Origin: Vicinamibacteria bacterium
Lineage (GTDB): Bacteria > Acidobacteriota > Vicinamibacteria > Vicinamibacterales > JAENWD01
Length of the DNA stretch: 33,727 nucleotides
Assembly: GCA_016650245.1 (NCBI GenBank)
Contig: JAENWD010000287.1
Coordinates: 1-33,727, forward strand
Direction of reading: 5' to 3'
A program made the translations under genes and the position numbers. Positions 7,626 to 13,505 of the stretch are shown here, in pieces. Positions within the stretch are counted from its first letter, which is position 1, and each line of letters starts with the position of its first letter. The notes beneath the pieces are model-generated. The model searched no databases. It was not told the DNA's origin and worked only from the letters and a program-made list of their open reading frames with translations.

Positions 7626-8438
7626 GTGTCTGAATCCCGCGTACTTCAGGGCGTCGGAGTCGCTCCGCCTGATCGCGTCAACCGCCGGGTTCGCAGGTAT
7701 TGGAACCAACACATCCACGATCTGGCGATTTCGCGCCACCCGCCGGGCTCGCCCGGATTCTTCGACGATCTCGACCAGTATCACTTCGACAAGCTCCATC
7801 ACCTGCTCCGCCTGGTGCCCTTTGACGGGCTGGCCGGCAAGCAGGTCCTCGACGTAGGCTGCGGAACGGGCGTGGATCTTGTGCGCTTTGCGCGCGGAGG
7901 GGCCCGGGCCACCGGTGTCGACATCGCCGACTCGGCCATTGCGCTGGCGAGGCAGAACGTCGCGTACCGCGGCCTGCACGCCCACCTGCTGGTCGCCGAT
8001 GGCGAAGCGTTGCCGTTTCCCACTGAGCACTTCGACTATGTGTTCGCGCATGGCGTGGCGCAGTACACCGGTAATGGGAGGCACCTGGTCGAGGAAGTGC
8101 ACCGGGTGCTGAAGCCAGGCGGCGAGGCGGCGCTCCAAGGCTACAACCGCATCTCGTGGCTCAACGCGTTGTCCAAGCTCATGAAGGTGGACCTCGAGCA
8201 CGAAGGCGCGCCCGTGCTGCACACGTACTCGCCGGCCGAGTTCCGCGCGCTGGTCGATGTCTTTCCGAGCGTCGATCTCGTCTTCGAGCGGTTTCCAGTG
8301 AAGAGCCGGCTGCATGGCGGCTGGAAGGGGCTGGCCTTCAACGCGTGCTTCGTCGGCGCGTTCAACGCGTTGCCGCGCGGCATGGTCACGCGCTACGGCT
8401 GGCACCTGCTCGCCCTCTGCCGCAAGTCGTCCACATGA
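7626..8438 (+). CDS. Class I SAM-dependent methyltransferase
   Basis: VLDVGCGTGVDLVRFARGGARATGVDIADSAIALA; FDYVFAHGVAQYTGNGRHLVEEVHRVLKPGG. Confidence 0.9.
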   Translation: MSESRVLQGVGVAPPDRVNRRVRRYWNQHIHDLAISRHPPGSPGFFDDLDQYHFDKLHHLLRLVPFDGLAGKQVLDVGCGTGVDLVRFARGGARATGVDIADSAIALARQNVAYRGLHAHLLVADGEALPFPTEHFDYVFAHGVAQYTGNGRHLVEEVHRVLKPGGEAALQGYNRISWLNALSKLMKVDLEHEGAPVLHTYSPAEFRALVDVFPSVDLVFERFPVKSRLHGGWKGLAFNACFVGAFNALPRGMVTRYGWHLLALCRKSST

Positions 8439-9241
8439 TCGCCTTCACCAAGGCACACGCCTACGGCAACGACTTCCTGTACGCCGCCGCCTCTGATCTG
8501 GCAGGCGCCGATCTGGCGATGTGGGCGCGCCGGCTTTGCGACCGCCACCGCGGCGTGGGCGCCGACGGACTCATTCTCTACACGCTCACAGCGCGTGGCG
8601 CGACGATGACGCTCCTCAACGCTGACGGCAGCCCGTCGGAGCTTTCCGGCAACGGGCTGAGAGGCCTGGCGGCGATCGTCGCGCGCGAATGGCGGCGCGC
8701 CGGGCGGTTGGATCGACACGACATCGTCGTTGAGACTACCGCGGGCCCCAAGCGCCTCGTGCTCGAAGAGGTCTCGGGCGCGTCCTATTTGTTTGTGGCC
8801 GAGATGGGGCAGCCTACGGGCATCGTCGAGCGCCGGTTCGACGTGCTGGGCGAGACGCTGACCGCCACGGTCATGGCCGTCGGCAACCCTCAGTGCGTCG
8901 TGCTCGGCCCACTGCCAGACGATGCGAGGTTCGCGCGGCTTGGGCCGGCACTGGAGCACCATCCCGCGTTTCCTGATCGCACCAACGTCGAGTTCGCCGT
9001 CGTCGAAGCCACGGACCGCGTGCGGATTCGGATCTGGGAACGTGGCGTCGGGCCGACCGAGTCGTCGGGCACCGGGTCGTGCGCGGCCGCCGTCGCCGCC
9101 GCCAGCCACGGCGGCGCTTCACGCGACGTCGAGGTCGTCGCGCCCGGCGGCACGCAGCGCGTCATCTGGAGCGAGGCCGGCATCACGCTGACCGGGTGGG
9201 CGGAAATCCTCGCCGACGGGACGTTTTGTGCGCAGCTTTAA
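8435..9241 (+). CDS. dapF: Diaminopimelate epimerase (DapF)-family protein with both catalytic Cys positions occupied by Ser
   Basis: KAHAYGNDFLY, NADGSPSELSGNGLRG, GNPQCVV, NVEFAVVE, ERGVGPTESSGTGSCAA. ATG 8435 overlaps the upstream stop (ATGA); the ORF-track start at 8156 is too far upstream. Confidence 0.85.
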   Translation: MIAFTKAHAYGNDFLYAAASDLAGADLAMWARRLCDRHRGVGADGLILYTLTARGATMTLLNADGSPSELSGNGLRGLAAIVAREWRRAGRLDRHDIVVETTAGPKRLVLEEVSGASYLFVAEMGQPTGIVERRFDVLGETLTATVMAVGNPQCVVLGPLPDDARFARLGPALEHHPAFPDRTNVEFAVVEATDRVRIRIWERGVGPTESSGTGSCAAAVAAASHGGASRDVEVVAPGGTQRVIWSEAGITLTGWAEILADGTFCAQL

Positions 9242-10766
9242 TCAGGCGATCGAGTCGGTGGAGATGTACTCGCCGGCCGAGGAACGGTTCAACCGGCGCC
9301 GGCGTACGGTGGGCCTGTTTCTGGCGCCGGCGGTCATGGCGGCGCTGTGGCTTGCGCCGCTGCCACTGGACGGGCCGGCGCACCGCATGGCCGCTATCAT
9401 GGGCCTGGTCGTCGTGCTGTGGGTCTCCGAAGCGCTGCCGATGGCCGTCACCGCGATTCTCGGACCGGTCCTGGCGGTTGTCCTGCGCGTGGCTGACGCG
9501 CGCGCCGCACTGGCGTCATTTGCCGATCCGATCATCTTTCTGTTCATCGGCAGCTTCATCCTCGCCGAGGCCATGTTCGTGCACGGCGTGGACCGCCGCA
9601 TCGCCTACACGGCGCTGTCGTGGAAGTTCGTGGGACACAGCGCGCCGCGCCTCCTGTTGGTCTACAGCGCGGTGGCGACCGGCTTGTCGATGTGGATCAG
9701 CAACACCGCCACCACCGCGATGATGTTTCCCATCGGCCTGGCGCTGGTGAGCCACCTGATGCAGAGCGGACCAAAAGACGAGGCCAGCCGGACCGCGGTG
9801 CGCCGCTTCGCGTTGGGTCTGATGCTGACGACCTCGTTTGCCGCGTCGGTGGGCGGGATGGCCACGCCGGTTGGCACGCCACCCAACCTGATTGGGATCG
9901 GCATGCTGGAGCGCATCACCGGTACCCGCATCTCGTTTTTCACCTGGATGGCCATCGGCGTGCCGCTCGTGCTCGTGCTCTTTACCGTGTTGATGGTCCT
10001 GTTCACAGTGACGACGACGCGAGGCGTGCGGATGTTGGAAGGCGGCGCGGAACTGGTGCGCGCCGAGAAGCGCAAGCTTGGTCCGCTGTCGGCCGCCGAG
10101 CGCAACGTGCTGCTGGCCTTTGGCGTGACGGTGCTGCTCTGGACGCTTCCGGGATTGCTCGCCCTGGTCGGACTCGACGCCAGCCCGTTCTCGCGGGAGT
10201 ATCAGAGGGCCGTGCCGGAAGGCGTCGCGGCGATGATCGGCGCACTCCTGCTGTTTCTGCTGCCCGTCGACTGGCGCGTGCGGCGCTTCACGCTCACGTG
10301 GGATGAAGCCGTGCGCATCGACTGGGGCATCGTCTTGCTCTACGGCGGAGGCCTGGCGCTGGGGGCCCTGGCGTTTCAGACGGGTCTGGCCGAGGCGCTG
10401 GGCAAGGGCATCACGGCGTGGCTGCCGTCGAAGACGTCGCTGACGTTGACCGTGATCTTCACCGGGTCGGCCATCCTGCTGTCGGAGGCGACGTCCAACA
10501 CGGCGTCAGCCAACATGATCGTGCCGGTCGCGATTGCCGTCGCCCAGGCGGCTGGCGTGCGGGCCGTCGAGCCCGCGCTGGGCGCCACGCTGGGCGCGAG
10601 CATGGGCTTCATGATGCCCATCTCCACGGCCCCCAACGCGATCGTCTACAGCTCGGGCTTCATCCCCATCACGGCCATGATGCGCTTCGGCATCGTGCTC
10701 GATGTCGTCGCGTTTGTTGCCATCGTGACGCTCGTGATGCTGCTCGGCCCGGTCCTCATTCCCTGA
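9228..10766 (+). CDS. SLC13/DASS-family anion:Na+ symporter
   Basis: Two SNT-type motifs (WISNTATTAMMFPIGLAL; SEATSNTASANMIVPVAIA), GTPPNLIG, and about 12 hydrophobic segments. Confidence 0.9.
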   Translation: MRSFNQAIESVEMYSPAEERFNRRRRTVGLFLAPAVMAALWLAPLPLDGPAHRMAAIMGLVVVLWVSEALPMAVTAILGPVLAVVLRVADARAALASFADPIIFLFIGSFILAEAMFVHGVDRRIAYTALSWKFVGHSAPRLLLVYSAVATGLSMWISNTATTAMMFPIGLALVSHLMQSGPKDEASRTAVRRFALGLMLTTSFAASVGGMATPVGTPPNLIGIGMLERITGTRISFFTWMAIGVPLVLVLFTVLMVLFTVTTTRGVRMLEGGAELVRAEKRKLGPLSAAERNVLLAFGVTVLLWTLPGLLALVGLDASPFSREYQRAVPEGVAAMIGALLLFLLPVDWRVRRFTLTWDEAVRIDWGIVLLYGGGLALGALAFQTGLAEALGKGITAWLPSKTSLTLTVIFTGSAILLSEATSNTASANMIVPVAIAVAQAAGVRAVEPALGATLGASMGFMMPISTAPNAIVYSSGFIPITAMMRFGIVLDVVAFVAIVTLVMLLGPVLIP

Positions 10767-11539: not shown

Positions 11540-12283
11540 TTGGCAGCATCCGCCATCCCGCTGGGCCCCGATGATCGGCCGCGCGAGAAGTTCATCCGCG
11601 TAGGCGCCGGGGGCCTGGGCGACAATGAACTGCTCGCGCTGGTGCTCGGACACGGCACGCCGGCGATGAATGCGCTCGAGCTGGCCAACGCGCTGCTGGC
11701 ACGCGCCGGCGGGGCTCGCGGCCTGCTGCGGCTGACGGAGGTGGAGTTGTGCCAGATGAGCGGCGTCGGGCCCGCCCGGGCCGCGCAGGTGCTGGCCGCC
11801 CTCGAGCTGGGGCGCCGGACCGTGATGCCGGAACTGGCCGAGCGGCGACAATTCAAGGCCCCGCGCGACATGGCGCTGTGGCTGGTGCCGCAATTCGGCG
11901 CCCACCCGGTCGAGCAGTTCGGCATCGTCTTGCTCGACACGAAGTATCGCTGGCTGGCCACGCGCATCATCTCGAGCGGCGCGCTGGACCGCAGTCCCGC
12001 ACCGCCCCGCGACGTGTTTCGCGAGGCCGTCGCTGTCCGCGCGGCCTTCGTCGTGGTCTTCCACAACCACCCGTCGGGTGAGGCCTCGCCCAGCGAGGAG
12101 GACACGGCCCTGACGCTCCACCTGTCGGAGGCAGCCGAGTTGCTGGGCATCGGCCTGTTGGACCACTTGATCCTCACGGCCACGGGGTACTTCAGTTTCA
12201 AGGAGCGGTCCGACGACGACCATCGGTCCGTGCTGCGCCTGCGCCGCGATCGCGGCGGCAACCGGCTCTTCAGTGATGACTGA
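11540..12283 (+). CDS. radC: RadC family JAB/JAMM-domain protein
   Basis: UPF0758 HhH region plus JAMM motif FHNHPSGEASPSEEDTALT. TTG start. Confidence 0.93.
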   Translation: MAASAIPLGPDDRPREKFIRVGAGGLGDNELLALVLGHGTPAMNALELANALLARAGGARGLLRLTEVELCQMSGVGPARAAQVLAALELGRRTVMPELAERRQFKAPRDMALWLVPQFGAHPVEQFGIVLLDTKYRWLATRIISSGALDRSPAPPRDVFREAVAVRAAFVVVFHNHPSGEASPSEEDTALTLHLSEAAELLGIGLLDHLILTATGYFSFKERSDDDHRSVLRLRRDRGGNRLFSDD

Positions 12284-12285
12284 GC

Positions 12286-12291
12286 TACAAT
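12286..12291 (+). promoter_or_regulatory. -10-like TACAAT upstream of larC
   Basis: TACAAT 14 nt before larC ATG 12306; no clear -35. Confidence 0.35.
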
Positions 12292-12305
12292 TGTCGTTTC
12301 GGACC

Positions 12306-13505
12306 ATGAGGATTCTCTACTTCGACTGCTTCAACGGCGCCTCCGGCGACATGATTCTCGGCGCGCTGCTCGACGCCGGCGTGCCGCTCGACGGGTTGCG
12401 CACGGCGCTGGGCAGTCTGGCCATCGACGGCTACGACATCGCGGCCGACCGCGTGTTGCGGGCCGGCGTGTCGGCCACCAAGTTTCGCGTGACCGAAGAC
12501 GAGACCACCAAGGCCGCGCACACCCACCATCACTCTCACCGCAGCCTCCCGGAGATCTACCGGCTCATCGACCGCTCCGCGCTGGCGCCAGCCGGCAAGG
12601 ACCGCGCAAAGGCGCTCTTTGAACGGCTCGCGGTGGCCGAGGCGGCGATTCACCAGATGCCCGTGGAGAAGGTGCACCTGCACGAGGTCGGCGCGCTCGA
12701 CTCGATCATCGACATCGTCGGCGCGGTGTACGCGCTCGACAGTCTGGGCGTGGACCGCGTGATCGTCTCGCCGATCAACGTCGGGCGCGGCATGGTGCAC
12801 TCGGCCCACGGAGTGTTCCCCGTGCCGGCGCCCGCGACGGTGCGCCTGCTGGCCGATGCGCCGGTGTTCTCGCGTGGACCTGAGGCCGAACTGCTCACGC
12901 CCACTGGTGCGCTGGTGCTCACCGGGTACGCGCAGGCGTTCGGCCCGATGCCGGCGATGCGCGTCGCGGCGACCGGCTACGGCGCCGGCGACCACGAGTT
13001 TGCCGACACCCCCAACGTGCTGCGCGTGCTGGTCGGGGAGTCCGGCGACGGACATGCCGACGGCGATCGCGTGCTCGTCGTCGAGAGCGAGATCGACGAC
13101 ATGAACCCGCAGTTGTTCGGCTCGGTCATGGACCAGCTCTACGCCGCCGGCGCCCTCGAGGTGTTCTTCGTCTCCGTGCAGATGAAGAAGAGCCGCCCCG
13201 GCACGCTGGTGTCGGTCCTCGTGGCGCCGTCGAAAAAGGACGACATCGTCGATGTGCTGTTCCGCGAGACCACGACCATCGGTGTGCGCTTTGCCGAGTG
13301 GCAGCGCGAGTGCCTGGCACGGGAGATCCTCTCGGTGGCCACGCCGTATGGTGACGTGCGCATCAAGGTCGCGCGGCGCAACGGCGTCGTGATGAACGGC
13401 CAGCCCGAGTTCGACGACTGCGCCGCCCGCGCGAACGAGCACGGCGTGGCGACCAAGGACGTGCACGCCTCCGCTGTGAAGGCCTGGCTCGAGCACCGCC
13501 CGTAA
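12306..13505 (+). CDS. larC: Nickel-pincer cofactor insertion protein LarC
   Basis: MRILYFDCFNGASGDMILGALLDAG; HLHEVGALDSIIDIVGA; ESEIDDMNPQLFGSVMDQL; single uninterrupted ORF. Confidence 0.92.
   Translation: MRILYFDCFNGASGDMILGALLDAGVPLDGLRTALGSLAIDGYDIAADRVLRAGVSATKFRVTEDETTKAAHTHHHSHRSLPEIYRLIDRSALAPAGKDRAKALFERLAVAEAAIHQMPVEKVHLHEVGALDSIIDIVGAVYALDSLGVDRVIVSPINVGRGMVHSAHGVFPVPAPATVRLLADAPVFSRGPEAELLTPTGALVLTGYAQAFGPMPAMRVAATGYGAGDHEFADTPNVLRVLVGESGDGHADGDRVLVVESEIDDMNPQLFGSVMDQLYAAGALEVFFVSVQMKKSRPGTLVSVLVAPSKKDDIVDVLFRETTTIGVRFAEWQRECLAREILSVATPYGDVRIKVARRNGVVMNGQPEFDDCAARANEHGVATKDVHASAVKAWLEHRP

Follow-up and report, generated by a model that had tools for sequence, protein, structure and literature searches.

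A DapF homologue with serine at both catalytic cysteine positions in Acidobacteriota and other phyla

The textbook diaminopimelate epimerase, DapF, is a cell-wall and lysine enzyme said to need two cysteines. It is the model of thiol-based, cofactor-free racemisation, in which the pKa mismatch between the thiolate and the alpha-carbon is a standing puzzle. A contig of a Vicinamibacteria bacterium (JAENWD010000287.1, positions 1 to 33,727, the whole stretch of 33,727 nucleotides being called the window below) carries a dapF-like gene with serine codons at both cysteine positions. This raises the question of whether such a protein can still epimerise diaminopimelate (DAP).

A DapF homologue with two serines

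The features of the window on which the analysis bears are the following.

7626..8438, + strand: SAM-dependent methyltransferase ORF, directly upstream of dapF, with an ATGA overlap
8435..9241, + strand: dapF-like ORF of the Ser/Ser form, 268 aa, assigned by TIGR00652, PF01678, AlphaFold2 model, and PDB match
8645..8647, + strand: codon TCC, Ser71, at the E. coli Cys73 position, preceding predicted helix 72-88
8891..8893, + strand: Gln153, at the E. coli His159 position (codon coordinates computed from the residue number)
9038..9043, + strand: Glu202-Arg203, the invariant DAP-binding pair equivalent to E. coli Glu208-Arg209 (codon coordinates computed from the residue number)
9065..9067, + strand: codon TCG, Ser211, at the E. 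coli Cys217 position, preceding predicted helix 212-226

A sequence-only reading of this DNA had placed an ORF at 8435-9241 and had seen both catalytic cysteines replaced by serine (TCC and TCG). The ORF was confirmed at those coordinates, and alignment with the E. coli and solved DapFs put Ser71 and Ser211 at the Cys73 and Cys217 positions. The protein scored 172.9 bits with TIGR00652 of NCBIfam, above the equivalog cut-off of 114.65, and its sole Pfam match was PF01678 (120.8 bits). All DAP-binding residues, namely those equivalent to E. coli Asn11, Asn64, Asn157, Asn190, Glu208, and Arg209, were present. With serine at both catalytic positions, the window protein belongs among DapF homologues but lacks the cysteine pair of canonical DapF. 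A displaced catalytic cysteine was also considered and rejected: no conserved cysteine was specific to Ser/Ser sequences, and the remaining ones (E. coli positions 34, 79, 160, and 222) were either also found in canonical DapF or variable among Ser/Ser sequences.

The AlphaFold2 model of the window protein (pLDDT 97.2) showed the two-domain DapF fold. Its best PDB match was Anabaena DapF (9mro, E 1e-29, TM 0.89/0.85), and the top 26 structure matches were all DapF or O-ureidoserine racemase. DapF structures matched at E 1e-29 to 1e-22. The similarity to PhzF isomerases was distant and far weaker (from E 6e-14, ~16% identity), and the match to hydroxyproline epimerases, likewise far weaker, ranked behind all DapFs. 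Membership of the PhzF family or of the proline racemase superfamily (hydroxyproline epimerases, t3HypD) was rejected on these fold rankings and on PF01678 being the only Pfam match. The comparison with the DapF, PhzF, and proline racemase families that had been suggested earlier places the window protein with DapF by both sequence and closest fold. In the model, Ser71 and Ser211 lie directly before helices 72-88 and 212-226; the catalytic cysteines of DapF are likewise located at helix N-termini (PMC12039745).

Copy number and genomic context

No second PF01678 gene and no second, canonical dapF, for which the sequence-only reading had advised a search, turned up in the host genome, a 4.26-Mb assembly of 448 contigs that is 90.7% complete. 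The host MurE scored as DAP-adding (NF001126, 539.2 against a cut-off of 373), with the Lys-adding model NF010628 below cut-off. The host DapB was over its cut-off, and the LysA-like open frame was intact. LysA requires meso-DAP, and the LysA of a relative, G003, passed the TIGR01048 equivalog. The DAP dehydrogenase Ddh (TIGR01921) was over cut-off in none of 60 same-order relatives. Among 149 phylum genomes, only G139 scored above it, and this genome has a Cys/Cys DapF (L248). Taken together, a DAP-type MurE, LysA, DapB, a single DapF, and no Ddh bypass make the Ser/Ser protein the sole known candidate for meso-DAP formation, gene absences being called in part on draft assemblies. The source, a soil-type acidobacterium, would thus have a Ser/Ser protein as its only diaminopimelate epimerase, as would most of its phylum. 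As to the enzyme forming LL-DAP, the DapL model TIGR03540 stayed below cut-off in the genome and matched general aminotransferases only.

A dapF homologue was found in 55 of the 60 same-order genomes, at 50-67% identity. Fifty-three of these had one match each, and G002 and G050 had two partial matches each, resembling one split gene. The Ser/Ser form is conserved in the clade, being present in 29/29 same-order relatives whose loci were first examined. The other five genomes (G016, G007, G022, G029, and G052) had no DapF homologue at E 0.001, nor a DAP dehydrogenase over cut-off; G016 is listed as 100% complete.

Pathway genes were also seen with serine-bearing DapFs elsewhere. G174, which has a Ser/Ser DapF, has a MurE and a LysA-like match. 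A dapE-like gene was found less than 8 kb from a Ser/Cys dapF in 11 Acidimicrobiia-type loci; meso-DAP has been reported in Acidimicrobiia members, mainly Iamiaceae (PMC12263773), strains that may differ from those of our loci. Chloracidobacterium thermophilum requires L-lysine (PMC4376005); were G174 of that species, its Ser/Ser DapF would act for the cell wall. We found no report on the peptidoglycan chemistry of a Ser/Ser isolate in the open-access literature.

The ATGA coupling of dapF to the methyltransferase gene, as previously noted, is a real overlap, and the methyltransferase is the same-strand, directly upstream neighbour of dapF in 11 of the 29 order relatives. It had also been remarked that other lysine/DAP genes were absent nearby, and indeed the window held no dapA, dapB, dapE, lysA, or murE homologue. 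Across loci, five gene families were tested and no dap neighbour of a Ser/Ser dapF was found. On the other side of dapF lies a Na+/sulfate-type (SLC13-like) symporter (9228-10766), which recurs in 3 of the 29 order relatives. Further on, at 11540-13505, a RadC-like ORF overlaps the ORF of a LarC-type nickel insertion protein, and a similar protein was seen near Ser/Ser dapF at other loci.

Distribution and conservation of the Ser/Ser form

When any codon was allowed at the catalytic position, a pattern search matched 80 of 396 phylum genomes; one matched codon was TGC and the others were TCN. In a census with TIGR00652, 175 of 179 good phylum genomes had a DapF, in nearly all cases a single one. 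The 95 distinct DapFs read from this Acidobacteriota census comprised 59 Ser/Ser, 33 Cys/Cys, and 3 Cys/Ser forms. The Chloroflexota sample (42 sequences) comprised 32 Cys/Cys and 10 Ser/Ser, and the Actinobacteriota sample (70 sequences) 47 Cys/Cys, 9 Ser/Cys, 8 Ser/Ser, and 6 Cys/Ser, these phylum fractions being rough because we chose the regions to fetch. The entire sequence set contained 182 Ser/Ser, 117 Cys/Cys, 55 Ser/Cys, and 9 Cys/Ser sequences. The last, reverse one-Ser form (Cys73/Ser217) was seen in a few Acidobacteriota and Actinobacteriota (L273, L311, L332, L432, L434, L439, L440, L442, and L443).

In 24 Ser-bearing genomes from several phyla, the Ser-bearing gene was the sole DapF. 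Four actinobacterial genomes (G561, G590, G614, and G625) had two DapF matches each, and the second copy read was Ser/Ser (L464-L467), so not all Ser/Ser proteins need be DAP epimerases. The second motif of L464-L467 (from G614, G625, G590, and G561) is altered to SSATG or ASAAG, and these are possibly subfunctionalised paralogues.

Trees built with both sites masked needed at least 15-18 state changes. Parsimony gave 8 changes of the Ser/Ser label, but a single Ser/Ser clade was not rejected (p-AU 0.177), and we therefore do not claim multiple Ser/Ser origins.

The positions of E. coli Asn11, Asn64, Asn190, Glu208, and Arg209 were invariant in all 182 Ser/Ser sequences, and that of Asn157 varied in a few relatives. 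Position 159 was His in all 172 Cys217 sequences; among the 182 Ser/Ser sequences, it was Gln in 70, including the window protein, and another residue in 9. Non-His159 was seen only with Ser217, a coevolution that is not significant because the independent pairs are too few and tree-aware tests lack power. When loci retrieved through a TCN-biased pattern were left out, Ser217 was encoded by 129 TCN and 4 AGY codons, and Ser73 by 112 TCN and 21 AGY. The background ratio of serine codons was 2717 TCN to 979 AGY in an earlier, partly overlapping gene set that included the pattern loci, a comparison which is indicative only, given the different gene sets and the relatedness of the sequences. Between close Ser/Ser pairs, dN/dS was ~0.04-0.26, indicating purifying selection. 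The gene is neither a sequencing slip nor a decayed gene.

A probable active Ser/Ser epimerase and its alternatives

In our view, the Ser/Ser protein quite probably serves its organism as the working epimerase of LL-DAP to meso-DAP, serine hydroxyls standing in for both catalytic thiols. This activity is inferred from the pathway logic given above: sole DapF, DAP-type MurE, LysA, DapB, and no DAP dehydrogenase. The single copy, the invariant DAP-binding residues, the TIGR00652 score, and the closeness of the fold to DapF all argue for it. The sequence-only reading had offered, as its third option, a lineage-specific active Ser/Ser epimerase. Activity is what the sequence data favour, but "lineage-specific" proved too narrow for a form found in several phyla.

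In canonical DapF, one cysteine removes the alpha-proton and the other donates a proton from the opposite face (PMC12039745, PMC8142540). By analogy, abstraction of the alpha-proton at the L centre would fall to Ser71 and reprotonation from the other face to Ser211, with the roles exchanged in the back reaction. Helix dipoles and backbone amides may lower the hydroxyl pKa enough, the helix N-termini probably activating the serines. Ser71 and Ser211 would then be the acid/base pair with which the window protein epimerises DAP.

Several points stand against activity. Serine hydroxyls are much less acidic than thiols. None of the five tested dap genes adjoins a Ser/Ser dapF, 5 of 60 relatives have no DapF match although one is listed as 100% complete, four actinobacterial genomes carry Ser/Ser second copies, and the DapL model was below cut-off for the LL-DAP-making step. 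Engineered C67S and C209S changes strongly reduce turnover in HisR (PMC11602996), and Cys-to-Ser changes are stated in general to lower turnover in the DapF fold (PMC12039745).

Alternatively, the DapF fold may have been kept and the chemistry changed, the protein catalysing isomerisation or dehydration as PhzF or t3HypD do, or binding DAP without epimerising it, with meso-DAP coming from another enzyme. In its favour, the proline racemase fold includes Ser/Thr relatives that act as dehydratases (PMC4113996), mutants with serine for cysteine epimerise poorly (PMC11602996), and many Ser/Ser members have lost the His159 of E. coli. We nevertheless think this unlikely, as the DAP-binding residues are invariant, the gene is single with a DAP-type MurE and LysA present and no Ddh, the DapF equivalog cut-off is passed, and the nearest fold is DapF.

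DapF-fold enzymes also switch substrate easily, as in the Fusobacterium histidine racemase (PMC11602996), and Anabaena DapF tolerates lanthionine (PMC12039745). The Ser/Ser protein might thus epimerise another diamino diacid or amino acid, such as lanthionine, the cell wall using that product or LL-DAP. We give this still less credence: the Glu208, Arg209, and Asn64 contacts are intact, LysA (the TIGR01048 equivalog in G003) requires meso-DAP, and a dapE-like gene is close to the Ser/Cys relatives of 11 Acidimicrobiia-type loci. Gene decay, or an error in sequencing or assembly, to which a fragmented assembly of 448 contigs might point, is hardly credible, because the Ser/Ser form occurs in independent genomes, with 182 distinct sequences from several phyla including the single-contig genomes G003 and G015, and dN/dS is far below 1.

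Discussion

The window protein shares with canonical DapF (TIGR00652; E. coli, H. influenzae, Anabaena 9mro, and A. thaliana 3ejx) its fold, length, and DAP-binding residues, the motif frames NADGS....xGNGxR and WERGxGxTxxxGTG, and the placement of the catalytic positions at helix N-termini. It differs in having serine for both catalytic cysteines and, together with many order relatives, Gln for His159.

Hydroxyl residues in place of one thiol are known elsewhere. The aspartate/glutamate racemase Ecl-DER belongs to a different racemase family from DapF. Likewise cofactor-independent, it has a Thr/Cys pair, but unlike the window protein it keeps one cysteine, and it is described as one-directional (review PMC8142540). 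Precedents within the same overall fold are a natural Ser93/Cys236 enzyme (4HypE, B9JQV3), a proven 4-hydroxyproline epimerase, and a natural Ser90/Thr256 enzyme (t3HypD, B9K4G4), a dehydratase, both having serine for a catalytic cysteine with proven activity (PMC4113996). In contrast to the window protein, they belong to another family and act on another substrate, each has only one serine per pair, and the Ser/Thr form dehydrates. What appears new here is the natural Ser/Ser pair, the Ser/Cys and Ser/Thr forms of the proline racemase superfamily being characterised precedents. In the open-access literature we came upon no natural Ser/Ser epimerase, though an earlier report could lie outside it.

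More generally, we regard it as likely on balance that two serine hydroxyls, acting as an acid/base pair, can run the cofactor-independent epimerisation of an amino-acid alpha-carbon, and that the thiol/thiolate pair is thus replaceable. In most Acidobacteriota such a protein would serve as the main DapF; it may have had several origins, some of them via one-Ser intermediates. The finding points to a DAP epimerisation that can dispense with the two-thiol chemistry of the textbooks. If true, a natural two-hydroxyl enzyme would sharpen the pKa puzzle and make it testable in one protein. The two-cysteine motif would be an unsafe criterion for scoring the presence or absence of dapF in genomes. 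Finally, one could no longer assume that thiol reactivity, redox control, and thiol-targeted DapF inhibitors apply across large parts of several phyla.
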